From: Bifidobacteriaceae bacterium
Lineage (GTDB): Bacteria; Actinomycetota; Actinomycetes; Actinomycetales; Bifidobacteriaceae
NCBI GenBank assembly: GCA_022651005.1
Contig: JALCQD010000001.1
Span: 1 to 64,000 of the forward strand
Direction of reading: 5' to 3'
Length of the DNA stretch: 64,000 bases
Each line of letters starts with the position of its first letter. Position 1 is the first letter of the stretch. Below, piece after piece: positions 3,705-57,338 of the stretch. The notes under the pieces are model-generated. The model made no database searches. It worked only from the letters and a program-made list of their open reading frames with translations, and was not told where the DNA came from. The translations under genes were made by a program, and so were the position numbers.

Positions 3705-5129
3705 TTAGCGCTCCGACTTCTTCTTCAGGAGATCCTTGTTCGGTGTTTCCTTCAAGAGAATGCGCGCGTCGCCGGCAGTGACGAAGCTGCCAGTGATGAG
3801 AACGCCGTGACCGTATCCCACGCCGAGTTCATCGTCGGTGTCCACGAGATCCACCGCCTTCGCAATGGCATCTGGCATGGAGGGCTCGGCAAAGACGCGA
3901 TCTTCCCCGAAGACGGATTTTGCCACTTTCTCGAGCTCGTCCACCGGCATGACGCGGCCGGTGTCGGAGTTCTGCGTCACCACGATCTGTGACAGCAGAG
4001 GCTCGAGAATGCCGAGAACGGCCTCCACCTGCTTGTCTCCCATCATGGAGACGACGCCCACGAGCTGCTGGAAATCGAAACTCTCCTCGATGGCCTTGCG
4101 CAGTGCGGTGACCGCCTGCACGTTGTGCCCGCCGTCGATGATGGTGGTGGGAGACGTACGGATGACTTCGATGCGGCCGGGAACCTTGACTCCGCCGAGA
4201 GCCTCTCCCACGAGGTCACCGTCGAGCGTGCCGGTCACCGGGATAACGACCTCGGCGGCAGCGAGCGCCGCGAGCGCATTGTGCGCCTGGTGCTCGCCGA
4301 ACATGGAGATCGGAACGTCCTCATATCGGCCGTTTGGCGTCTGCAGAGTGGCCATCTGCCCGCCTACCGCGGGAACGCGTGAAAGAACTGTGAGCTCCTC
4401 TCCATCACGCAACAGTGTTGTCCCGGGTTCGCTGTGCGCCTTGTCCGCCAGTATTTTCTGCACAGACTCGTGGTCCTGAGGACCGACGATGACAGTGGAA
4501 CCGGCCTTGATGATGCCCGCCTTCTCTGTGGCAATCTCCTCAACAGTGTTGCCTAGCCACTGCATGTGGTCCATTCCCACGGGTCCGATGATGGCGGCAT
4601 CGGCGTCGATGACGTTGGTGGCGTCCCACAAGCCACCCATGCCGACTTCGACAATCGCAACGTCGACGGGCGCATCAGCGAAAGCCCAGATGGCCATAGT
4701 GGTAAGAACCTCGAAGAAGCTCATGCGCGGACCGCCGTTGTCCAACGAGTGCTTGTCTGCGAGATTGATGAAGTCGATGACTTGTTCGTACAGATCCACG
4801 AAGCGCTCATCCGAAATCTGCTGCCCGTCGATGGCGATGCGTTCATTCACCTTTTCGAGATGGGGCGACGTATAGAGACCAGTGCGCAACCCATAGGCGC
4901 GCACGAGCGCCTCTGACATGCGTGCCGTGGAGCCCTTGCCGTTGGTGCCGGTGATATGAATCGTTTTAAAGGATTTTTCGGGATGCCCCAAGAGGTCGAG
5001 AACGTAACGCATCCTATCAAGACTCGGATCGAAATCGTGTTCTGGCGCCCTCTTCATGATCTCGCGATACACCTGTTCAACACTGAGATTCGAATTTTCC
5101 GGCTGTTCGAGTGACACCATTACTTCCAT
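3705..5129 (-). CDS. folC: Bifunctional folylpolyglutamate / dihydrofolate synthase
   Basis: Mur-ligase-fold enzyme that adds glutamate to folates (and in many bacteria to dihydropteroate) with ATP. The P-loop ITGTNGKGST and the following TSPHLEKVNERI segment are diagnostic of FolC, and the FDGGHN-type element appears as IIDGGHNVQAV in the C-terminal domain. The start is uncertain. The frame is open up to a GTG at 5174, but in-frame ATGs at 5129 and 5120 and a GTG at 5117 are all possible. A GGAAG lies just ahead of the last two. I give 5129 (about 474 residues). It is first of a folC-smc pair and is divergent from pepP. Confidence 0.92.
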   Translation of the reverse strand: MEVMVSLEQPENSNLSVEQVYREIMKRAPEHDFDPSLDRMRYVLDLLGHPEKSFKTIHITGTNGKGSTARMSEALVRAYGLRTGLYTSPHLEKVNERIAIDGQQISDERFVDLYEQVIDFINLADKHSLDNGGPRMSFFEVLTTMAIWAFADAPVDVAIVEVGMGGLWDATNVIDADAAIIGPVGMDHMQWLGNTVEEIATEKAGIIKAGSTVIVGPQDHESVQKILADKAHSEPGTTLLRDGEELTVLSRVPAVGGQMATLQTPNGRYEDVPISMFGEHQAHNALAALAAAEVVIPVTGTLDGDLVGEALGGVKVPGRIEVIRTSPTTIIDGGHNVQAVTALRKAIEESFDFQQLVGVVSMMGDKQVEAVLGILEPLLSQIVVTQNSDTGRVMPVDELEKVAKSVFGEDRVFAEPSMPDAIAKAVDLVDTDDELGVGYGHGVLITGSFVTAGDARILLKETPNKDLLKKKSER

Positions 5130-5321
5130 TCTGTGCGAGTTCCGTTGGGCGAGGCTGCAGATGCCATACGCCACCGCTCCATATTACCGTTGCGCCCCCA
5201 CATTCGTGCGATTTCCGGGCTCAGTGAACGGTGATTCTCTCTGCGGTGAATTCGGCGGTGCAAAGCGACAGCTAGGATGGCGGGTAGTCAATGGTCGTCG
5301 CTGAAGAAAGGAACCAGAATC

Positions 5322-6914
5322 ATGGCAGATAATGCAGGAGCGTCACTTCACACTCCGTCACGTCACGCCGAGGTGAAGCAGCAGGATGAGAGAGGTATTG
5401 CGGGCGGTGATTCCGCCGCGATCTCTGAACGCGTCAACAATCGCTCGCTGCGCCCCGATTCACCCGCTTTCCGTGACTTCATGAAGCAGGGATGGGCCGA
5501 AGAGTCCAGCGACGCGACCGCTCTGGAATCCTCAAAGTTCACACCCGCACGCCTAAAAGCGTTGGGGGCACAATTCCCCGGCGAACGCATCGTTATCCCC
5601 GCGGGCGTTGCGAAGGTGCGCAACAATGACTGCGATTACCCCTACCGCCCCGACACCACCTTCGCGTACTACACCGGTTTGGGCCAGGATTTTGAGGCAG
5701 GGGCAGTTCTCGTTCTCGAACCGACCGCCGCCGACGGCGCGGATCACACTCCGGTTCTTTACCTGCACCCCCGTGCCGACCACAGCACGCGCGATTACTA
5801 CCGTTCCTCGGCATACGGAGAATACTGGGTGGGGCCGCGTCCCGGCCTCGACGAATTCACCACGATGACAGGCATCGAAACACGTGACATCTCCCAACTT
5901 TCCGACGCTCTCGCCAAGGACGTCGGCGCAGGTCAGGGAGGCATTCGCGTACGCGTCGTCAAGGAGGCAGACCCCTCCATCACGAGCATGGTGGAGACCG
6001 TGCGCGAGCAGAACGGCTTCGACGACCCTGCCAGCAACGACGCCGACGACGATCAACTGCACGAATTCGCCGCCACCGCGCGTATGCTCAAGGATTCCTA
6101 CGAGGTGTCCGAGCTGCGCAAGGCCATCGCCGCGACGCACGACGGCTTCAACGCGATTCTCGCCACGCTCCCCAAGGCTGTTGACAACGAACATGGCGAG
6201 CGCATCCTCGAGGGTGCCTTCAACGCCGTGGCGCGTGAAGAGGGCAACGACGTCGGATATGGCACCATCGTCGCCTCCGGCGCTCATGCCCCCACGCTGC
6301 ATTGGATGCGCAACACGGGTACCGTCGCCAAAAACGACATGCTGCTCATCGACGCCGGAGTCGAGGTGAACAGCCTGTACACGGCAGACATCACGCGCAC
6401 CTTCCCCGTCTCCGGTCATTTCTCGCCCCTGCAACGTCGCCTGTATGAAGCCGTATACAAGGCGCAGCAGGCCGGGTTCGCGGCGGCCCAACCAGGTCAC
6501 ACCTATTCAGACATCCATCACGCCTGCATGCGCTCTTTGGCGGAATCGCTCCACGAATGGGGAATTCTCCCCGTTCCGGTGGAAGAGTCCCTCAAGCCAG
6601 AGGGCCAGCAACATCGTCGCTGGCACGCATGTGGCGTGGCGCATCATCTCGGCCTTGACGTGCACGACTGCGCAGAGGCGCGCTATGAGTCCTATCAGGA
6701 TGCGAAAATCACGCCAGGAATGGTGTTCACCATTGAGCCCGGGCTCTACTTCCGTGACAATGACCTGCTCATTCCCCCGGAGTATCGCGGCATCGGTATC
6801 CGCATCGAGGACGACGTCCTGATGACGGAGAACGGTCCCGAATGGCTCAGCAAGCCGCTCATCCCCTCTGCACCCGACGAGGTCGAAGCGTGGATGGCAG
6901 GCCAGGCCGCCTGA
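5322..6914 (+). CDS. pepP: Xaa-Pro aminopeptidase (M24B)
   Basis: A 530-residue cytosolic metalloaminopeptidase that removes an N-terminal residue preceding proline. The N-terminal half is the aminopeptidase P N domain. The C-terminal pita-bread domain carries all five dinuclear metal ligands in order: Asp in LLIDAGVE, Asp in YTADITRTF, His in GVAHHLGLDVHD, Glu in TIEPG and Glu in IRIEDDVL. An AAAGGAACC ribosome site 9 bases upstream supports the ATG at 5322, although the frame is open from 5277. Its stop overlaps the start of the Nudix gene (TGATG), indicating translational coupling. Confidence 0.93.
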   Translation: MADNAGASLHTPSRHAEVKQQDERGIAGGDSAAISERVNNRSLRPDSPAFRDFMKQGWAEESSDATALESSKFTPARLKALGAQFPGERIVIPAGVAKVRNNDCDYPYRPDTTFAYYTGLGQDFEAGAVLVLEPTAADGADHTPVLYLHPRADHSTRDYYRSSAYGEYWVGPRPGLDEFTTMTGIETRDISQLSDALAKDVGAGQGGIRVRVVKEADPSITSMVETVREQNGFDDPASNDADDDQLHEFAATARMLKDSYEVSELRKAIAATHDGFNAILATLPKAVDNEHGERILEGAFNAVAREEGNDVGYGTIVASGAHAPTLHWMRNTGTVAKNDMLLIDAGVEVNSLYTADITRTFPVSGHFSPLQRRLYEAVYKAQQAGFAAAQPGHTYSDIHHACMRSLAESLHEWGILPVPVEESLKPEGQQHRRWHACGVAHHLGLDVHDCAEARYESYQDAKITPGMVFTIEPGLYFRDNDLLIPPEYRGIGIRIEDDVLMTENGPEWLSKPLIPSAPDEVEAWMAGQAA

Positions 6915-7423
6915 TGACGACTCCCACCTTCATTCTGAACCTGCGAAAAAAGATCGGCCACGATCCGCTGTGGCTCGTTGGCGTCACGGCCTTCGTGCGC
7001 GACGCCACAGGCCGCGTCCTCTTGGCGAAGCGTGCCGACACGGGCGAATGGGCGCTGATCTATGGCATCAACGAGCCAGCCGAAGAGCCCGCAGACACGG
7101 TTATTCGCGAGGCCAAGGAGGAGACGGGCGTCGACGTGACGCCGGATTTTTTGGCGTCGGTCACGTCGTCGGCGCGCATGCTCACCTACGACAACGACGA
7201 TCAGGCGCAGTACATGGATCACACGTTCATCTGCTCGCTCACGCCGGGGGGCAATGCTGTGCCAGGAACGGGCGACGGCGAGAATACAGAGGCGGGTTGG
7301 TTCGATCTTGACGATCTCCCACAACCACTTGCCGCCTCCACCGTCGAAAGAATGGAACGGGTGCAGGAGTTCCTGCACAATGATTCCCACGCCGCCATTT
7401 TCCGATCAGAAATTCAGGGATAA
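6914..7423 (+). CDS. Nudix hydrolase
   Basis: A 169-residue Nudix-fold pyrophosphohydrolase. The Nudix box is complete: G-x5-E-x7-REAKEETGV, read from GINEPAEEPADTV onward. Substrate cannot be read from sequence. The N-terminal DPLWLVGVTAFVRDATGRVLL stretch resembles MutT-like and NUDIX ADP-sugar or nucleotide hydrolases. The frame is open further upstream, but the ATG at 6914 overlaps the pepP stop codon in the TGATG arrangement, so it is the preferred start. It is the second gene of a pepP-Nudix pair and ends before a strong hairpin. Confidence 0.88.
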   Translation: MTTPTFILNLRKKIGHDPLWLVGVTAFVRDATGRVLLAKRADTGEWALIYGINEPAEEPADTVIREAKEETGVDVTPDFLASVTSSARMLTYDNDDQAQYMDHTFICSLTPGGNAVPGTGDGENTEAGWFDLDDLPQPLAASTVERMERVQEFLHNDSHAAIFRSEIQG

Positions 7424-44331: not shown

Positions 44332-45564
44332 TTACTTAGAAAAAATTGCCGCGATGTCGTCCTGTTCACGCGCCATCCTCACAGCTACTCCGCTTGCCAC
44401 CAAACACATAACGAGCGCGGAGCCGCCGGCGGAGATGAAAGGCAATGGCAATCCAATGACTGGCAGCAGCTTGAGAACCACCATGATGTTGATGAGCGCT
44501 TGCCCCACAATCCACGAAGTGATGCACACAAGCACAAGCCGCGCATAAGGATGGTTGCGCATCTTGAGGGCAATGACGATGAGGCACCACGCAAGAATCG
44601 CGAATCCGAGAATGACGACACCGGCACCGATGAAGCCGAGCTCCTCGCCGATGATGGCGAAAATGAAATCGTTATGCGCTTCAGGCAAATAGTTCCACTT
44701 CTCGCGGGAGGCACCGAGACCCACCCCAGTGAATCCTCCGGAGGCAATGGCATAGAGACCGTGGATGGACTGATAGCACACGCCCTGCGCATCGGCCGCA
44801 TCTGTGCACCCGCTGAAGAGCGCCGAAATGCGGTTCATACGGTTCGAGCTGCCGAGCACAAAGACGCCCACAATGCCCACGGCTGCGACGGCTCCGGTGA
44901 GAAGGTACGCCTTCAGACTGAAGCCCCCCGCGAAAATGGCGACGGCACCAATGAGCAGGAGGATGAGACCCGTTCCCAGATCCTTGCCCGCCAGCACGAG
45001 GAGAAAACCTAGTCCGAAGAACGCAAGCGGGACCACAAAACCTTTGACGGATCCCAGATGACGAGTTTTTGACACATTGATGACCTGCGGCATCCACAGG
45101 CAAAGGGCCAACTTCATGATCTCTGCTGGCTGGAAGGTGATGGGTCCAAGGCTTATCCAACCGGTGTTGCCGCCGGAGCTGACGCCCAGTCCCACGAGCG
45201 TCAGCATCTGCAGCCCCATGGCAAACAGCAACGCAAGAAAAGAGAAGCGCTGGTAGAACTTGACCGGGACGAACGCCGCCACCGTTCCCACGATGAGACC
45301 AATGACGGCAAAAGTGCCTTGACTGATGAGCTGCGAGAAAGGAGACTTCCCCGCCGCCACGAGATCAACAGTTGACGAGGAAAAGACCATGAGCAGACCA
45401 AAGGCCATGAGGAACACGACTGTCACAATGAAGCCGTAATAACACACGATGGGCTCGGTAATAATCTGCCACCACTTGGCGCGACGAGACGTCGAGGAGG
45501 CTGTTGCCTCTGCGGACTGCGAGGCTTTTGTCTTTGTCGGCACGGACGACCTAGGCCTAGGCAT
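44332..45564 (-). CDS. ftsW: Lipid II flippase/polymerase FtsW (SEDS)
   Basis: A 410-residue SEDS protein with ten membrane helices and the family segments GKDLGTGLILL and PLPFISAGGSALV. It has a Ser/Thr/Lys-rich cytosolic N-terminus of about 30 residues. The C-terminal MAREQDD end is short. It overlaps the murD stop by 8 bases (ATGCCTAG). Works with FtsI as septal transglycosylase. Confidence 0.96.
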   Translation of the reverse strand: MPRPRSSVPTKTKASQSAEATASSTSRRAKWWQIITEPIVCYYGFIVTVVFLMAFGLLMVFSSSTVDLVAAGKSPFSQLISQGTFAVIGLIVGTVAAFVPVKFYQRFSFLALLFAMGLQMLTLVGLGVSSGGNTGWISLGPITFQPAEIMKLALCLWMPQVINVSKTRHLGSVKGFVVPLAFFGLGFLLVLAGKDLGTGLILLLIGAVAIFAGGFSLKAYLLTGAVAAVGIVGVFVLGSSNRMNRISALFSGCTDAADAQGVCYQSIHGLYAIASGGFTGVGLGASREKWNYLPEAHNDFIFAIIGEELGFIGAGVVILGFAILAWCLIVIALKMRNHPYARLVLVCITSWIVGQALINIMVVLKLLPVIGLPLPFISAGGSALVMCLVASGVAVRMAREQDDIAAIFSK

Positions 45565-47089
45565 GCTGACTCACCCATGCATGTGCCTGATCGGCAAACT
45601 GGTTTCCACGATCCACATACGACGTGAACTGATCCATGGAAGCGGTAGCCGGCGCCATGAGCACAACGGTGCCAGGGGTCGCATACTTCATTGCGGCGTC
45701 AATGGCATCGCGCATGACGTCCGCCTTGCTGTCGCTGGGAGAGATGCGGGTCACGGGCAAATCCGGAGCCGAGGCGGAGAACGCCTGAAGGAAGGGATCC
45801 TGATCGACGCCTATGAGCACGGCCGCCTTCATGACGTGGCGCTGAGACGCAATGAGATCCTCGAAACGCGCACCCTTGGCGAGCCCGCCGGCGATCCAGA
45901 CGACCGAATCATCCGCGAAGCTGGACAACGAGGCAGCGGCGGCGTGGGCATTGGTGGCCTTTGAATCGTCGATAAAGCGGATGGGAGCGGCCGCAGAATT
46001 ATCTGTGGGCACGTAGCTCTCCACGAGCTGGATGCGGTGGGCGTCGAGAGTAAAGGAGCTCAACGTGGCACGAATATCGGCGAGCGGCACCTTCATGGCG
46101 AGCGCTGCTGCTGTGGCGGCCATGCAATCGGCAAGCAGATGCGGGTAGACCGCCCCGTTCGGCTCGCTCAGATTGCTCAAAGACTTCAGGGATACCAACA
46201 GTCCTCCGTCAACGTCCGGGAGGTGCACACTCAATTCTGAGCGATCCACCATCCACCCATCAACCACGCCGATTTGGCCTACCTCCGGCTCTCCGAGCGT
46301 AAAGCCCACTTTGAGGCATCCAGGGGCTACCGGAGCCGTAGCGGCGTAGCGAGCGACGGTGTCGTCATCGGCGTTGTAGATGATGGCACGCGAAGCGTGT
46401 GTAAAGACCTTCGACTTATCGGCGGCGTACTTGGCGAACCCGCCATGCCAGTCGAGATGATCGGCCGCCACATTGGTCCATATGGCCACATCGAGGGCGA
46501 GCGACTGTGTGAAATGCAGGGCGAAGGAGCTGAGCTCAACGGTGAGGCCATCGTTGGTGGGATCCAATACCGACCGAGACACGGGTTCTCCGATGTTGCC
46601 CACTGCGGGAACCTTCAACCCCGCTGCATTGAGGATTGCGCTGGTCATTTCTGTTGTGGTGGTTTTGCCATTGGTCCCGGTAATGCCGATCCACGGAGCA
46701 GGAGCGCCGGTTTTCGTGGAAGACACGCGGGTGCGCCACGCAAATTCGACTTCGCTCCACACGGGGATGGCGCGAGATGCCGCTTCCTGGAGAAACGCGG
46801 TTGCAGGGGGGAAACCGGGCGACGTCACCACAAGCGTGATGTCTTCCCACGGCAGATCATCGAAGGAGTTGCGATCCGCATCGCCATTGCGTTCGTCCAC
46901 GCTGATAGTGCGCACACCATGGTCCGAAAGAATGCTCTCCACGCTGCGTCCGGAAATGCCCAGACCCGCGACGAGCACCACGTCATGGGAGAAATCGTGA
47001 CCTCCGATAACGGCGTCCTCGCTCCCCTGAACAGCGTTCGTTTTCTGCACAGTGTCCTGCGAGTCGTGTTCCTCGTTCGACGATGTCAT
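45557..47089 (-). CDS. murD: UDP-N-acetylmuramoyl-L-alanine--D-glutamate ligase
   Basis: A 510-residue Mur ligase with the N-terminal VLVAGLGISGRSVES, P-loop GITGTNGKTTTTEM, and the substrate segments NVAADHLDWHG and VWIAGGLAKG. GAAGGAAG 4 bases before the ATG. An acidic N-terminal extension of about 30 residues precedes the core. It adds D-Glu in the cytosol. Confidence 0.96.
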   Translation of the reverse strand: MTSSNEEHDSQDTVQKTNAVQGSEDAVIGGHDFSHDVVLVAGLGISGRSVESILSDHGVRTISVDERNGDADRNSFDDLPWEDITLVVTSPGFPPATAFLQEAASRAIPVWSEVEFAWRTRVSSTKTGAPAPWIGITGTNGKTTTTEMTSAILNAAGLKVPAVGNIGEPVSRSVLDPTNDGLTVELSSFALHFTQSLALDVAIWTNVAADHLDWHGGFAKYAADKSKVFTHASRAIIYNADDDTVARYAATAPVAPGCLKVGFTLGEPEVGQIGVVDGWMVDRSELSVHLPDVDGGLLVSLKSLSNLSEPNGAVYPHLLADCMAATAAALAMKVPLADIRATLSSFTLDAHRIQLVESYVPTDNSAAAPIRFIDDSKATNAHAAAASLSSFADDSVVWIAGGLAKGARFEDLIASQRHVMKAAVLIGVDQDPFLQAFSASAPDLPVTRISPSDSKADVMRDAIDAAMKYATPGTVVLMAPATASMDQFTSYVDRGNQFADQAHAWVSQHA

Positions 47090-47155: not shown

Positions 47156-48259
47156 TTATCCCAGCTGTCCGGAGCGGATAAGCCAGTCGGCGTAGAAGAT
47201 GATGACGGAGATGATCATGAACCCGATCTCCAGCATCCAGAAACGCACCACGACGGTGTTCTCGTGCCAGCCCTTGAGCTCGTAGTGATGATGCAGCGGC
47301 GCCATCTTGAAGATGCGCTTGCCGGTGAGGTGGAACGACGCGATCTGGAGCACGTCGGACACGGTCTCGATGACGAACAGGCCGCCCAGAATGATGGCCA
47401 GCAGTTCCACGTGCAGACTGACCGACATGGCCGCAAACAGACCACCCAATGCCAACGAACCGGTGTCGCCCATGAAGATCTTGGCGGGATTCGTGTTGTA
47501 CCACAGGAACCCGAAGCACGCGCATACGGCGCACACGGCGATGATGGCGATGTCCTGCGGATCCGAGACCGCATACAGAAAGCCGCTTGCCTTGGATCCC
47601 TGAACATGAGTCGACTGCCAGAAGGCGATAAGGCCGAAGCCTACAAAAGCCACCATGGAGCTTCCCGCCGCCAGCCCGTCGAGGCCGTCGGTGAGGTTGA
47701 TGGCGTTGGTCCATGCGGTCATGAGGAAGTTAACCCAGATGACGAAGAGAATCACACCCACCACACGACCGGCGAATTCAAGCGAAATAACAGGAGTCTC
47801 AATGAAGGCGATGCTCATGCGCGCCGCCGGGAATCCGGACTTTGTGGGCAGCAGCACCGCGAGAATGGCATACACGGTGGCGATGAGGAATTGCCCGATG
47901 AACTTCGCGTGGATTGACAGGCCGAGGTTTTGCTTCTTGGCCACCTTGAGGAAGTCATCGACGAAGCCAAGCGCCCCGAACGCCACCATGCAGAAGAGAA
48001 CGAGTAGCGCCGATACGGAGGGCACGGAGCCGTAGCTCACGTAGCGGTACAGCAGCGAGGCCCCCCAGCCGAGAATGGTGGAAAGGATGATGGCGATACC
48101 ACCCATCGTGGGCGTTCCACGTTTCAGCAAGTGCGACTTGGGCCCATCCTGGCGAATGTATTGCCCGTAGTTGAGATGGTGCACTATGCGAATGGTGAGC
48201 GGGGTAAGGAGGAAGGAAGAAACCATCGAAACACACAAGCCAATGATGAGCGCAATCAT
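47156..48259 (-). CDS. mraY: Phospho-MurNAc-pentapeptide translocase
   Basis: A 367-residue ten-helix membrane enzyme that makes lipid I. It has the conserved KRGTPTMGG near the N-terminus, DDFLKVAKKQNLGL, NLTDGLDGLAAGSS with catalytic aspartates, MGDTGSLALGG and the HHHYELKGW terminal segment. It starts 4 bases downstream of the murF stop, with GGAGAG as ribosome site. Confidence 0.97.
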   Translation of the reverse strand: MIALIIGLCVSMVSSFLLTPLTIRIVHHLNYGQYIRQDGPKSHLLKRGTPTMGGIAIILSTILGWGASLLYRYVSYGSVPSVSALLVLFCMVAFGALGFVDDFLKVAKKQNLGLSIHAKFIGQFLIATVYAILAVLLPTKSGFPAARMSIAFIETPVISLEFAGRVVGVILFVIWVNFLMTAWTNAINLTDGLDGLAAGSSMVAFVGFGLIAFWQSTHVQGSKASGFLYAVSDPQDIAIIAVCAVCACFGFLWYNTNPAKIFMGDTGSLALGGLFAAMSVSLHVELLAIILGGLFVIETVSDVLQIASFHLTGKRIFKMAPLHHHYELKGWHENTVVVRFWMLEIGFMIISVIIFYADWLIRSGQLG

Positions 48260-48263
48260 GTCA

Positions 48264-49814
48264 CTACTCTCCGTCTGTCGCTGTCATTGCCGTAGCCGAC
48301 GACGGCTGCGGAGGGTCTTGCGTCCATTGCTGCGCGAGATTCCCCAGACCCGACGCATGGGAACCCTTGAGCAAAACAACCGTATCAGGGTGACTGGAAG
48401 CAATGGCGGCAACCGCGTCAGCCGCCGTATCGAGGTCCGACACCGTGGTGATGCTCACCGTGTCCGTGGCGCCTTTTCTGAGTGCTTCTTCGCGCGCCCC
48501 ATCCGTGAGAGCCTGCGCCAGCACGGGAAGGCTGTCGTTGCCCTCCGATGCCTCGAGACCGACGACGATGATAGTGCGCACACCTGCCGCTACTGCATAA
48601 GCGCCCACCTGCGAGTGCAGAGACACGGAATCGGATCCGAGCTCGAGCATGGGACCAAGGACTGCCATGTGGTAAGAATCTGGATGAGTATGCATGAATC
48701 CATCAAGCGCCGCCTTCATGGAGTCGGGATTGGCGTTGAAGGAATCATCCACCAACGTGAAACTCCCGCCATTCGGCACCTGTACCGTGCTCAATGCCAT
48801 GCGATGTGGGCTGAGGCTGACGCCCTCGTTGAGGACCTTCACCACGTCGGGCAGCTTCAGCCCGAGTGTTGTTGCAATGCTGATGGCAGCGAGCGCGTTC
48901 ATCACATTGTGCTGTCCGGAGAGGCTCAAGTGGATCTCGCCTGCGGGCTCCCCACCCTCGAGAAGAGTGAAGCTCGGCCGATCGCGATCGTCGACGCTGA
49001 TATCTGTAGCACTGAAGGCGAGACTGCGCCCGGCCTCGTGCGCGCCGCCGGCATCGAGGCCGAACCAACGGACCTGCGCCTTCGTGCGTTCCGCCATGCG
49101 TGCCACGTTGGCATCGTCGGAGTTGAGGATGGCAATGCCGTTTTCAGAGAGTGCCTCAACGATTTCGGACTTTGCGATGAAGATGTTCTCAACGGATCCG
49201 AACTCCCCCAGATGCGCCGTACCCACCTTGAGTACGAGCGACACGTCGGGAGGCGCGATGGCGGTGAGATCGCGAATCTCGCCAAGGTGGTTCGCCCCCA
49301 TCTCTGCCACGAAATATCGCGTTTTCTCGTCCACCTTGAGCGCGGTGAGGGGCAGTCCGAGATTGTTGTTAAAGGAGCCTATGGGTGCCACGGTGGGCGC
49401 AATGGAACTCAGCAACGCTTTTGTGATGTCTTTGGTGGTCGTCTTGCCCACGGACCCCGTGATGCCCACAAGCGTGAAGTCTCCATTCAGACTGCGACGA
49501 CGATCGATGTTGTGACGAGCGAGTTTGCCCAGCGCCGCCAAAGTGTCGTCCACTTCGATCTGAAGCAACGGCGCATCGGCAACCTCATGGTCTACGAGCG
49601 CCACCTTGAAGCCGTTGGAGGCCGCCGAAGAGAGAAAATCGTGTCCATCTGCACGCTCGCCACGAATTGCCACAAACAGGCCGTCGGTCACCACGTCTCG
49701 CGAATCGCTGCTTACCGTAGTGATTCCCAAATCGGAGATGTCAACAGGCTCTTTGCCGGTAACAATCGTTCCGTCAACCGCCTCGGCGATGTCGTCAACG
49801 CCCATACGAATCAT
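48264..49814 (-). CDS. murF: UDP-MurNAc-tripeptide--D-Ala-D-Ala ligase
   Basis: A 516-residue Mur ligase with P-loop GITGSVGKTTTKD, the Mur core ADVNxxHLGEFGS element and the C-terminal VDDSFNANPDSMKAAL typical of MurF. AAGGCGG precedes the ATG at 49814. An in-frame ATG three codons later is an alternative. It completes the pentapeptide in the cytosol. It follows the MurE-like gene by 86 bases. Confidence 0.96.
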   Translation of the reverse strand: MIRMGVDDIAEAVDGTIVTGKEPVDISDLGITTVSSDSRDVVTDGLFVAIRGERADGHDFLSSAASNGFKVALVDHEVADAPLLQIEVDDTLAALGKLARHNIDRRRSLNGDFTLVGITGSVGKTTTKDITKALLSSIAPTVAPIGSFNNNLGLPLTALKVDEKTRYFVAEMGANHLGEIRDLTAIAPPDVSLVLKVGTAHLGEFGSVENIFIAKSEIVEALSENGIAILNSDDANVARMAERTKAQVRWFGLDAGGAHEAGRSLAFSATDISVDDRDRPSFTLLEGGEPAGEIHLSLSGQHNVMNALAAISIATTLGLKLPDVVKVLNEGVSLSPHRMALSTVQVPNGGSFTLVDDSFNANPDSMKAALDGFMHTHPDSYHMAVLGPMLELGSDSVSLHSQVGAYAVAAGVRTIIVVGLEASEGNDSLPVLAQALTDGAREEALRKGATDTVSITTVSDLDTAADAVAAIASSHPDTVVLLKGSHASGLGNLAQQWTQDPPQPSSATAMTATDGE

Positions 49815-49900: not shown

Positions 49901-50794
49901 TCAGAAAAACTCCTCCGAGACCTTCACCGCCTGCTGAATGCTTTCGATGGTGATGCCCGCGGCCAACGCCATGGAGATGCTCAGTGCGGAGCTACGGTCC
50001 GTCATTGGCATGAGAGTCCCCAGCCGCGCGAGCTCGCCGTCAAACATCCCGGCCACAACGCGATGCGTCTGCTTGTCAAAGGCAGCTCCATATTCGGGAG
50101 TGGTTTCTCCTGCGGCAATGGCAGACGCCACAGTGGCCGGCATGGCATTCTCCCCCACGCGCGAATACACGTCGATCTGCGTCCCCACGAGCGCCGTGGA
50201 ATCTAGAGTTCCCTCATCGGCGGCAATGACGAGAGCCGCGGCTCCGTCCTCGAGCACCAAAGACTCGAGTCGTTGCAGCTGCACCGAGTTCAGGGGGAAG
50301 TTCAGATTGAGACCGCGATTGAGCGAATATGACTTCTCCTGCGATACCAGACCAACGGGGTTGCCGAGCATATGCAGCAGAGTGGCGAGTTTCGCCGCCA
50401 CCTTCTCCGCGCCGCTTGCAGCACCGAACACCACGAACACCGCCAAGGACTCAGAGGGGGTTCCCTCCATGTAAGACGCCAGGGTTCCCAATTTCTGCGG
50501 GATGTCTCTTGCCGAAAGAACAGGAATGCCAATGTCGGATGTCTTGGGCCTCTCCCCGCCCTCGGGTACAAGCACTGCGTAGGCGCCAGAATTCACCGCA
50601 GCATGCAGACTGGCATGATCGCGTTCCTCCGGACCGGGAATGAAAAGCGATCCCGGACTCACGGAGTCAAGGTCAGTGGCCAAGCTCGTCAGCGTTACCA
50701 GATTGACAAAGGGTTCGTCGAGGCGGGCAGAGAAATTCTTCTTGAGATATTCGAGACTCACCCGCCGAAACGGGACGTCGCCCAATCCGCTCAT
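49901..50794 (-). CDS. MurE-like protein lacking catalytic motifs
   Basis: A 297-residue protein whose N-terminal domain matches the MurE start (DSVSPGSLFIPG, then NSGAYAVLV) and whose middle follows the Mur ligase core. The P-loop position reads GAASGAEKVAA (124-134) instead of GTNGKTT, and the Mur ligase MEVSSH motif and the HLDYHG box are absent. The C-terminal ligase domain is much reduced; a full MurE is near 490 residues. It sits between ftsI and murF, where murE is found in other dcw clusters, with AAGGTGA as ribosome site. Likely a non-catalytic paralogue; a regulatory or scaffold role is inference. The true MurE is elsewhere. Confidence 0.8.
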   Translation of the reverse strand: MSGLGDVPFRRVSLEYLKKNFSARLDEPFVNLVTLTSLATDLDSVSPGSLFIPGPEERDHASLHAAVNSGAYAVLVPEGGERPKTSDIGIPVLSARDIPQKLGTLASYMEGTPSESLAVFVVFGAASGAEKVAAKLATLLHMLGNPVGLVSQEKSYSLNRGLNLNFPLNSVQLQRLESLVLEDGAAALVIAADEGTLDSTALVGTQIDVYSRVGENAMPATVASAIAAGETTPEYGAAFDKQTHRVVAGMFDGELARLGTLMPMTDRSSALSISMALAAGITIESIQQAVKVSEEFF

Positions 50795-50828: not shown

Positions 50829-52670
50829 TTACCACTTTGTAGGAATAGCATTATTGCGGGCGGTGGAGGTGGGGACCTCGTATTTCTGCATAAGGAATCC
50901 ACCAATGCTGGCCATGACAGGGCCAGCCGTGAGACCGCCGTAGATGGGGCTGGAATTCATGTACGCCACCATGATGACGTATTGGGGGTTGTCTGCGGGA
51001 ATTGCACCGATCCAGTCGCCGATGGTGTTGGTCAGTTGGCCGTTTGCCCCCGCCACCTGTGCTGTGCCCGATTTGCCTGCGATTCTGTAGCCCTTTACGT
51101 TCACGCCTGCCTTCGAATACGTTTGGGTGACCGACTCCATCATGTCCATCAGGTCAGAGGCCACGGATGCGTCGATGACGCGCGTGCCTTTGGTGCCTGA
51201 GTTGGTGGTGGTCTTGCCGTCAGCGTCTTTGGACGACTTGATCAGCGACTGCTGCAATTTGACGCCCTTGTTGGCAACCGTGGCCACGACGTTCGTCATT
51301 TGCAGAGCCGTGGCTGCGTAGCCCTGGCCGAACAGCACCGTATTTGCCGTGCGAGTATCCCACTTGTCAGCTGCTGCGAGGATGCCTTTCGATTCTCCGG
51401 GAAACCCGATGCCGGATGTGGAACCAATGCCAAATTTGGTGATGAAGTCATGCCGTTGAGTGCGAGAAAGCCCCTCCGAACTCATCACCATGCCAACGTT
51501 AGAGGATTCCTTGATGATGCCTGCCAGCGTCAACTTCTCTATACCGTGCGAGTGAGAGTCGTGATACGTCTGGTTGTTCAGCGTGTAGGAATAGGGCACC
51601 TGAAAATGATCCGTGGCCTTGTGCAGCTTCGTCTGCATCAACGCTGCCGCGGTAATGAGCTTGCCCGTGGAACCCGGCTCGAACGACGTCGTCATGGCAC
51701 GAGAGCCCTTGAGAGAGGCGTCTGAGCTGCCAGCCTTGTATCCATCGGTGTCGGCCACTGCGGTGAGCTCTCCGGTGGACACCTTTTGGACTATGGCGAT
51801 GCCCCAGTCGGCACCATATTTCTTTTTGCCTTCGTTGAGGACTTTCTCCACATACCATTGCACGTCAGAGTCCACGGTCAGCTTCACCGTGCCACCGTTC
51901 TTGGCGGAGGTGGCTGTGGTTCGGGTTCCCGGTATCTCCTGGCCACCCGATCCCTGCTGATAGGTCACGGACCCGTTCTTACCTTTGAGCGCGGAGTTCT
52001 CCATTTTCTCCACACCTGCCACGCCCTGGCCATCCGAATTCGTGGCGCCTATCACCGATCCCAGCAGTGCCCCGTTGGGATAGTCACGGTCTGTTGTCAG
52101 CTCGGTGCCGATGACGCCGGACAGATTCAGTGTGTCGAGATTGCGCTTCACGCTCGGTACCACGTTCTTCTTGAGAATCACGTAGCCCGAGGTGCCGTTC
52201 AGCTTCGCCCCCAGCTCCAGAGAATCCATGCCCAGCACGGGAGCCAACAGCTGAGCCACAGCAGCCGCGCCCTTCGTGGTCAGAGCCTTGCCATTCTGCT
52301 GCTGACAGACAGAGGAATTGGACCCCGTGCACGCGGTGGGCACGAACAGTTTCACCGCGTTCTGGTCGGCGTAGACCGTATAGCGTTCCACGGATTGCGC
52401 GAAAATTTTGCCATTGACATCGGTAATGGTTCCCCGGCTTGCTCGGATTGTCTCAGTCACCGTGCGTTGGTCCGTCGCCGCCTGCGCCACGGAGGACCCC
52501 TCAAAAATCTGAACCTGGAGAAGACGACCGAAACACACCAGAATCACCACTGCCAAAATCCCCGCCAATACCTGTGTACGACGAGAAAAAACAGCAGAAT
52601 CTGACCGCGAGCTCATCCAGCGGGCAAAAAAGTTCTTCTGTTTTTTGGGTGGTGTTGTACGCCGTGGCAT
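50829..52670 (-). CDS. ftsI: Peptidoglycan D,D-transpeptidase FtsI / PBP3-type
   Basis: A 613-residue class B penicillin-binding protein: short basic cytosolic tail, one membrane helix (VLAGILAVVILVCFGRLL), pedestal domain, and transpeptidase domain with SxxK in PGSTGKL, SxN in KESSNVG and KSGTAQ. Cysteines in CTGSNSSVC may form an extracytosolic disulfide. The start is uncertain: the ATG at 52679 has AGGA directly adjacent, whereas the ATG at 52670 has good spacing, so I choose that one. It ends 34 bases before the MurE-like gene. Confidence 0.96.
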   Translation of the reverse strand: MPRRTTPPKKQKNFFARWMSSRSDSAVFSRRTQVLAGILAVVILVCFGRLLQVQIFEGSSVAQAATDQRTVTETIRASRGTITDVNGKIFAQSVERYTVYADQNAVKLFVPTACTGSNSSVCQQQNGKALTTKGAAAVAQLLAPVLGMDSLELGAKLNGTSGYVILKKNVVPSVKRNLDTLNLSGVIGTELTTDRDYPNGALLGSVIGATNSDGQGVAGVEKMENSALKGKNGSVTYQQGSGGQEIPGTRTTATSAKNGGTVKLTVDSDVQWYVEKVLNEGKKKYGADWGIAIVQKVSTGELTAVADTDGYKAGSSDASLKGSRAMTTSFEPGSTGKLITAAALMQTKLHKATDHFQVPYSYTLNNQTYHDSHSHGIEKLTLAGIIKESSNVGMVMSSEGLSRTQRHDFITKFGIGSTSGIGFPGESKGILAAADKWDTRTANTVLFGQGYAATALQMTNVVATVANKGVKLQQSLIKSSKDADGKTTTNSGTKGTRVIDASVASDLMDMMESVTQTYSKAGVNVKGYRIAGKSGTAQVAGANGQLTNTIGDWIGAIPADNPQYVIMVAYMNSSPIYGGLTAGPVMASIGGFLMQKYEVPTSTARNNAIPTKW

Positions 52671-52684
52671 GCGCGCCATTCCTC

Positions 52685-54876: not shown

Positions 54877-55058
54877 TCCACACGCTTATCTGAGGTGTTT
54901 TTTAGAAGTTTTTAAGATCATTCGTTGATTGCTCATTCGCACGCCCCTCCGGGCCGCTTTACGCCGTCGCCGAAGTCCTTCCGGTTTGTCGAATACCGCG
55001 CAGTACAATGAGATGCTCATTTTTTGACCCCTTTTCAGGGGTAGGTCGAAGGGAAAGA

Positions 55059-57338
55059 ATGACTGATTACACCACGCAGCTGAAGGACGAGCAGGTCATG
55101 GTGGACGCCATCTATGCACGTCTCGACGCCATGGCGGCTCAGACCCGCGAGCGCCTCACCGCAGTCCGCGCGGCAGGAGGCCACGGCTCCCCCACTCAGC
55201 GCACCGAGCGTGATTCCTTCGCCACCATGTACGAGGAGCGACTCACCCAGTTGCGCGCGGTCCAGGATCGCCTCGTCTTCGGCCGCCTCGACACCGACGC
55301 CGGCGAAAAACGGTACATCGGCCGCATCGGCCTGTCAGACCTCCATCACGACCCCATGCTCACCGACTGGCGCGCCGAGGCCGCACGACCCTTCTACGAG
55401 GCCACCGCGAAAAACCGTTTCGACATCGTGATGCGCCGTCATATCTCTTTAAAGTTCCGCGAGGTTGTTGGTATCGAGGACGAAGTTCTCGACGTGTCAT
55501 CGGCACACGTGGCAGAGGCTTCGGAATCAGGAACACTCACCGGCGAGGGCGCCCTTCTCACCTCACTCAGCAGTCGACGAACCGGCAAGATGACAGACAT
55601 CGTGGCCACCATTCAGGCCGAGCAGGACCGCATCATTCGCGCTCCCCTCAATCAGGTGACCGTTGTGCAGGGAGGCCCAGGGACCGGGAAGACGGCAGTG
55701 GCCCTTCACCGCGCCGCCTACCTTCTTTATACGCATCGCCGTCGCCTCGAACGCTCGGGAGTACTCGTGGTGGGCCCCTCTCAGGCTTTCCTCCATTACA
55801 TTGACCAAGTGTTGCCTTCGCTGGGAGAAACGGGCGTACTGTCGCGCACCATAGCGACCCTCTTGCCCGGCATCAGCGTCAGCGCGGTTGAGGATCCCTT
55901 CGCCGCGCAAATCAAAGGCGACATCCGTATGGTCAAGACCGTGGCAAACGCCGTCGCCTCTCGCGTACGCGTCCCCTCGGAACTTCCCACCGTTCACGTC
56001 AACAGCGTGCATCTGCGCATTTCGGCTGCAGACATCGAAGAGGCCCAGCAAGCGGCTAGACGCACCCACTTGCCGCACAATCGCGCTCGCGTAACGTTCG
56101 TGGAGCACATGCTCGAGCTGCTCGTGCAGCGCTACTCAGAGCAGCTCGATTACACCCCCGAGGCGGCCGAGCTCGGTCGCGTACGCGATGACCTGAGATA
56201 CAACGACGTCGTGAAGAAGACTCTGAATCTGGCATGGCTACCGCTGAATGCGGAATGGCTCGTGGCCGACATGTGGGCCAAACCCGCGCACCTGCGCCGT
56301 TACGCTCCATGGCTCGACGACGATCAAATTGAGACGCTGTACCGCCCCAAGGGCTCGAGCTGGACTGCGTCAGACGTTCCCCTCCTCGACGAGGCGATGG
56401 AACTCATCGGCGACGATCCACGAAAAATCGCCGCAGCCTCCGCCGCTCCAAAGATGACGGACGAGGAGCGCTATGCCAAGGACACCCTGGAATCTATGGG
56501 AATCAGCCCCTCCCTCGTAAGCGCGCATCAGCTGGCCAGCGGGATGGAGGCGAGCGAGGATGGCGACTTGCTGTCCGCCCGTGCCGCCAAAGACCGCACC
56601 TGGACGTTTGGGCACATTGTGATTGACGAGGCTCAGGAACTCACCCGCATGGAGTGGCGCATGCTCATTCGCCGCTGCCCCTCACGTTCCTTCACCATTG
56701 TGGGCGACGTGGCGCAAACCTCAGCCTTGGGCGGGGCACGCTCCTGGAACACGATGCTCGACCCCGTTTTCGGTCACGACCGGTGGCACCTCGGAGAACT
56801 CACCATCGATTACCGCAATCCCCAAGAAGTGGCCGACCTTGCTTCCGACTTCGCTCGCAACGAGGGCCTCTACATTTCCACGGTCAAGGCCGTACGTGAA
56901 GTGGAGGGCTCTGTGTCGCGCCACATCGTGGACCACCTCGAGGAACTCGTCAGCACTACAATTACCGAAATCCTGGATCTTGTACGCCGTTATCTTGCGG
57001 ATGACGGAACAGGCCGCATCGCCGTCATCGCCGACGACGAACTGCTCTCCACTCTGCGCGCCCCCCTATGGGATGCTGTCCGCAAAGAACTGGGTGACGA
57101 CGAACTGCACAGGCTCCAGTCCCAGGCCGACGGCGATGATCAGATCGATCTCACCAACCCCGAGGGCATCAAAGGCCTCGAATACGATGCCGTTCTGCTG
57201 GTGCAGCCCGGTCTTATCGAAGAGAACAGCCCGAACCGGCTCACCGCCGCATCGGATCTGTTCGTGTCCTTGACCAGACCCACTCAGCAACTCGTCATCG
57301 TGCGGACCCGCGATGACGCGAAGGAACTGCCTCTGTGA
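55059..57338 (+). CDS. HelD-like superfamily 1 helicase / RNA polymerase recycling factor
   Basis: A 759-residue SF1 helicase of the HelD/UvrD-like type. The N-terminal ~70 residues are a coiled-coil-like arm, the Walker A is QGGPGTGKTAV near 205-212, and VIDEAQELTRMEW is motif II, with GDVAQTS as motif III and VSLTRPTQQL near the end. HelD proteins dislodge stalled RNA polymerase, and some actinobacterial ones protect against rifampicin. The frame is open from 55008, but GAAGGGAAAGA precedes the ATG at 55059. Divergent from mraZ. Function here is inferred from family. Confidence 0.85.
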   Translation: MTDYTTQLKDEQVMVDAIYARLDAMAAQTRERLTAVRAAGGHGSPTQRTERDSFATMYEERLTQLRAVQDRLVFGRLDTDAGEKRYIGRIGLSDLHHDPMLTDWRAEAARPFYEATAKNRFDIVMRRHISLKFREVVGIEDEVLDVSSAHVAEASESGTLTGEGALLTSLSSRRTGKMTDIVATIQAEQDRIIRAPLNQVTVVQGGPGTGKTAVALHRAAYLLYTHRRRLERSGVLVVGPSQAFLHYIDQVLPSLGETGVLSRTIATLLPGISVSAVEDPFAAQIKGDIRMVKTVANAVASRVRVPSELPTVHVNSVHLRISAADIEEAQQAARRTHLPHNRARVTFVEHMLELLVQRYSEQLDYTPEAAELGRVRDDLRYNDVVKKTLNLAWLPLNAEWLVADMWAKPAHLRRYAPWLDDDQIETLYRPKGSSWTASDVPLLDEAMELIGDDPRKIAAASAAPKMTDEERYAKDTLESMGISPSLVSAHQLASGMEASEDGDLLSARAAKDRTWTFGHIVIDEAQELTRMEWRMLIRRCPSRSFTIVGDVAQTSALGGARSWNTMLDPVFGHDRWHLGELTIDYRNPQEVADLASDFARNEGLYISTVKAVREVEGSVSRHIVDHLEELVSTTITEILDLVRRYLADDGTGRIAVIADDELLSTLRAPLWDAVRKELGDDELHRLQSQADGDDQIDLTNPEGIKGLEYDAVLLVQPGLIEENSPNRLTAASDLFVSLTRPTQQLVIVRTRDDAKELPL

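Follow-up and report, generated by a model that had tools for sequence, protein, structure and literature searches.

A constrained, family-wide MurE pseudoenzyme occupies the murE position of the dcw cluster in Bifidobacteriaceae

The gene found at the murE position of the dcw cluster in the family Bifidobacteriaceae codes for an ancient, constrained and family-wide pseudoenzyme, a catalytically dead remnant of MurE that we refer to as pMurE. The copy described here lies on the reverse strand (49901..50794) of the window, the whole stretch of 64,000 nucleotides that was analyzed, and was characterized through its open reading frame, profiles, an AF2 model and its relatives. By fold, profile and position in the cluster, pMurE is a homolog of MurE. 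In our preferred reading, which we consider fairly probable, it is the native dcw MurE, which lost its chemistry after a Firmicutes-type MurE was imported and was kept for a non-catalytic job in lipid II assembly. A literature search found no description of a pseudo-MurE, and the passages found in the main text of the Bifidobacterium breve TraDIS paper (PMC5514069) do not name the gene.

The reading frame is intact, as the first-pass annotation had proposed, and runs from an ATG start codon through 297 amino acids; 34 nt separate it from ftsI upstream and 86 nt from murF downstream. The gene order in the window is ftsI-pMurE-murF-mraY-murD-ftsW, with ftsI (septal PBP, 50829..52679), an intact murF (48264..49814), mraY (placed by synteny, 47156..48259) and murD (45557..47089) all on the reverse strand. 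We compared 80 loci from named records of Bifidobacterium, Aeriscardovia, Bombiscardovia and unclassified Bifidobacteriaceae; ftsI is the upstream neighbor of pMurE, in the order ftsI-pMurE-murF, in 73 of them, and murF follows directly 3' in all 80. Families of the order outside Bifidobacteriaceae have retained ftsI-murE-murF with a full MurE, in the position that pMurE fills here. A large helicase-like open reading frame on the forward strand (55008-57338), divergent from the dcw operon, adjoins it in 78 of the 80 relatives.

A Pfam search of pMurE found no domain. The NCBIfam models for MurE and MurE-MurF gave a weak but true match to residues 34 to 209 (E 1e-9), and the MurE-MurF profile was matched by 57 of 63 relatives, with a best E of 5.6e-15. 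The family profile, searched against the PDB, matched MurE structures at E 2e-14 and weaker. The AF2 model (pLDDT 90.5, pTM 0.89) aligns over residues 7 to 293 with residues 29 to 371 of Mycobacterium tuberculosis MurE (Z 24.2 to 2XJA, rmsd 2.7, 262 residues). According to this model, pMurE consists of domains 1 and 2 (the N-terminal and the central Mur-ligase domains), has a trimmed middle lobe and lacks domain 3. The earlier suggestion that the N-terminal domain and the rough course of the Mur ligase core had been kept, for which a structure prediction was proposed as a check, is thus borne out by the superposition.

The identity of the catalytic residues is well established for the Mur ligase family, and 93 relatives of pMurE were compared with outgroup MurE column by column. 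The former P-loop, GTNGKTT in active MurE, reads GAASGAEK at residues 124 to 131 (50402..50425, reverse strand; FGAASGAEK with the preceding residue); its Lys is retained in none of the 93 relatives, and no P-loop pattern is present at this site in any of them. The Mg-binding Glu of MEVSSH is retained in a single relative, the HLDFHG core is gapped in 90 of 93 with the carbamylated Lys kept in one, and each Thr of the substrate-loop TT is kept in two. DFAH, in the C-terminal domain, is gapped in 93/93, and the specificity motif of that domain is essentially gone from the same relatives. There is no alignment of pMurE past residue 371-372 of M. tuberculosis MurE, so that the Mur_ligase_C domain is absent. 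The altered P-loop and the missing MEVSSH and HLDYHG boxes noticed in the first-pass annotation therefore hold in essentially all of the 93 relatives; the annotation was also right about a loss at the C terminus, but the domain described there as short is wholly absent, the model covering only residues 29 to 371 of the M. tuberculosis enzyme. Judged from sequence and model, pMurE would not be a MurE enzyme, as the P-loop, the Mg-binding Glu of MEVSSH, the HLDxHG lobe with its carbamylated Lys and the C-terminal domain are all missing.

Despite these losses, the constraint on pMurE is as strong as on its working neighbors. Median Nei-Gojobori dN/dS over close pairs, which are not independent of each other, was 0.083 for pMurE (26 pairs), compared with 0.084 for MurD, 0.101 for FtsI, 0.125 for MurF and 0.038 for MraY. 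Neither a frameshift, an internal stop nor a P-loop was found in any of the 93 orthologs. The gene had been described as maintained and not decaying, and both checks proposed for this, the alignment of orthologs and dN/dS, agree with that description. Recent decay is ruled out by the purifying selection, the 93 open frames and the retention across the family. With the catalytic residues lost and both frame and protein constrained, the pseudoenzyme claim is well supported.

Of the 189 genomes of the family, 177 carry pMurE, among them every one of the 161 with a completeness of 90% or more, and each of these 161 also codes for a full-length MurE of the Lys type. pMurE was missing from 12 genomes. 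One is an incomplete congener; the other 11, from five genera whose assemblies are small and incomplete, are probably the termite symbionts of PMC11707648. Since pMurE is absent from these small, incompletely assembled genera, its role appears to be dispensable somewhere. In four of the genomes that lack it (G011, G020, G021 and G032), ftsI directly adjoins murF. Three loci of the small genera without pMurE (L151, L152 and L148) carry a full MurE on the opposite strand near the dcw cluster, beyond mraY, and these MurEs group as a clade of their own in the MurE tree.

The first-pass annotation had proposed a search for a second, full-length MurE in the same genome, and there is one. The genome codes for six Mur_ligase_M proteins, among which only one is a full MurE, located away from the dcw cluster; the other five are MurF, MurD and MurC (in the window) and a MurT-like and a FolC-like protein, the last two identities being assigned from reading the sequences and not from a profile search of each. 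The full MurE (519 amino acids, contig C2) has intact motifs and scores 663 bits with NF001129, 415 with PRK14022 (the L-Lys model) and at most 269 with the PRK00139.1 models, which fit dcw MurE; an outgroup dcw MurE gives the opposite pattern on the same profiles. In a sample of 297 genomes from the class, this type was found in the window's own genome alone (E <1e-90); among the control genomes, Lactococcus lactis was positive. This suggests an import from Firmicutes as the putative donor, where the choice of donor and the timing of the replacement are based on distribution and on profile scores, the tree having no Firmicutes rows.

The surroundings of the Lys-type gene also deserve mention. 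In the same genome, a gene for a bridge enzyme of the FemAB family begins 36 nt 3' of it; this order, Lys-type MurE followed by a FemAB-family gene (L153:6542-9151), is shared with a near relative, and a few other genomes have FemAB-like open reading frames beside their Lys-type MurE, a possible murE-femX cassette. About 20 Bifidobacterium genomes code for two Lys-type MurEs, often in tandem (e.g., G090:C1:1698980-1702161, G113:C1:232676-235856 and G068:C1:716187-719346), and these pairs may differ in amino acid specificity (Lys versus Orn).

In the MurE tree, which is unrooted and holds long branches, all pMurE sequences cluster in one clade (100/100) at the end of a long stem (3.04 changes per site), and a second clade (100/100), which excludes them, unites the Lys-type MurEs with those of the termite symbionts. 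As far as these sequences can tell, pMurE groups with the native dcw MurE and not with the Lys type, and its origin as a paralog of the latter is ruled out by tree and synteny. The simplest history would be that an ancestor of the core family acquired a Firmicutes-type L-Lys/Orn MurE, displacing the native actinobacterial enzyme of the dcw cluster, which would have lost its chemistry fast and then come under constraint in the core family while being deleted in the symbionts. The native body would have been kept because of a non-catalytic job that it already had or gained.

That job would probably be structural or regulatory, and we propose that pMurE may serve the cytoplasmic assembly of lipid II, either as an adaptor between proteins or as a regulator. 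Its most likely contacts would be MurF and/or MraY and MurG, with a possible tie to FtsZ or DivIVA; MurF is suggested as a partner by its constant place downstream of pMurE, with an overlap of the two genes in some lineages. Contacts of this kind are known elsewhere. Mur ligases interact in M. tuberculosis with FtsZ, FtsW, FtsQ, Wag31 and SepF (PMC3605390); in Bordetella, MurE-MurF binds MurG, for which a scaffolding role in a Mur complex has been proposed (PMC6420597). By analogy, a MurE body with such contacts may merit keeping after its chemistry has moved. Against an adaptor counts that the Mur synthetases of M. tuberculosis did not bind each other (PMC3605390). More tentatively, a structural role of MurE in precursor assembly might be separable from catalysis and outlive it, the native body still being needed in a lipid II assembly complex, of which it would be a dedicated and possibly essential subunit.

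The presence of both proteins in all 161 high-quality genomes could also mean that pMurE serves the imported Lys-type MurE as a non-catalytic subunit or allosteric partner, in a heteromer that tunes or localizes the enzyme, and in the genera without pMurE the MurE does lie in a different place and makes up a clade of its own. We consider this unlikely, as phylogenetically the co-occurrence amounts to one event, the two genes are unlinked and there is at least one case, G034 (87% complete), in which pMurE coexists with a MurE from outside the core clade. Mur ligases are not known to need such subunits. The locus in G034 (L058) could represent a separate replacement or an assembly problem.

An equally doubtful option is that pMurE is an adaptor of the divisome, tying the supply of wall precursors to septal synthesis through FtsI, FtsW and FtsL or through FtsZ and DivIVA. 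It would fit the position after ftsI in 73 of 80 loci, the interactions of the M. tuberculosis ligases with division proteins (PMC3605390) and the mirror-tree covariation of pMurE, which is best with FtsI (partial r 0.43; 0.13 with MurF). We gave little weight to this last signal because linked neighbors share their history and because it clashes with what is seen in g13, an Aeriscardovia-like genus with genomes of 0.6-0.9 Mb. The dcw cluster of g13 lacks ftsL, ftsI and ftsW, a search for FtsI in its genomes gave no match, and its single FtsW/RodA protein is coded outside the cluster, beside a PBP. Yet g13 retains pMurE, directly after mraW and overlapping murF by 20 nt, as well as FtsZ and DivIVA. 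FtsI, FtsL and the dcw FtsW thus cannot be its sole partners, an option that we regard as ruled out; g13 favors a link of pMurE with MurF, MraY and MurG or with FtsZ and DivIVA. With this single RodA/FtsW-type protein, its adjoining PBP and only one further PBP, g13 has an unusually reduced division machinery (loci L073, L074, L075, L077, L078, L079 and L144, around 5000-7000; genomes G014, G026, G206, G208, G209 and G210).

Some of the residues that became fixed in pMurE could point to an acquired function. Those it has in common with MurE (G48, L50, G70, P91, L140, E182, G184, D208 and G280) are presumably structural, while Y72, H141, N145, P146 and R160 were newly fixed in the family. Three of these belong to an invariant family motif, LHxLGNP (LHMLGNP in the window, residues 140 to 146, 50357..50377, reverse strand), in which H141, N145 and P146 are invariant in 93/93 relatives and differ in outgroup MurE. 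The segment from H141 to P146 follows the helix behind the old P-loop and precedes the next strand; in P-loop folds this is the edge opposite the nucleotide site, which makes a new contact surface plausible. From the topology of the fold, the edge of the central domain with LHxLGNP and the E-D-G residues, opposite the old ATP site, would be the likely contact surface. We regard it as quite improbable that pMurE has acquired ligand binding or catalysis of a new kind based on the invariant H141, N145, R160, E182 and D208; nearly all relatives share the newly fixed polar residues H141, N145 and R160, and the fast stem followed by strong constraint would suit it, but E182 and D208 are common to MurE and may be structural, and pMurE has no new domain or fold. 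Finally, that the gene is decaying, or persists only as a spacer for translation coupling, is hardly credible: all catalytic motifs are lost and long-range divergence exceeds that of FtsI, MurF, MraY and MurD, but against this stand the 93 orthologs free of stops, a dN/dS of ~0.08 and retention in genomes of 0.6-0.9 Mb.

Whether Mur ligases form a physical complex and have roles beyond catalysis is a long-standing question, and here evolution has split the MurE body from its chemistry throughout a family, even in genomes of 0.6-0.9 Mb. The partners of pMurE and the phenotype of a knockout would bear directly on the structural role of Mur ligases. Bifidobacteria matter for infant gut health, and the gene at the murE position in them should not be taken for the enzyme that builds the stem peptide.

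Among known systems, the native actinobacterial dcw MurE (M. tuberculosis, 2WTZ/2XJA) is like pMurE in its N-terminal and central fold and in its position between ftsI and murF, while pMurE lacks the P-loop, the Mg- and substrate-binding residues, the carbamyl-Lys and the C-terminal domain. The Lys-type MurE of the Bifidobacteriaceae (NF001129/PRK14022 type), in contrast, is full length, has intact motifs and belongs to a separate clade and an unlinked locus; within the same genomes, it supplies the reaction that pMurE cannot carry out. The best profile match of the pMurE family is the Bordetella MurE-MurF fusion (8F5D), in which a MurE body is physically coupled to MurF, although both halves of the fusion are active and pMurE is separate, truncated and, by its sequence, inactive. 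The second-best match in the PDB is PAP11, the MurE-like protein of plastids (Z 22.9 to the pMurE model), which is part of the plastid-encoded RNA polymerase complex. PAP11 is likewise a descendant of MurE and makes up one subunit of a multiprotein complex, but it is full length and works in plastids in a transcription complex; the likeness seen to pMurE is one of fold and profile only.
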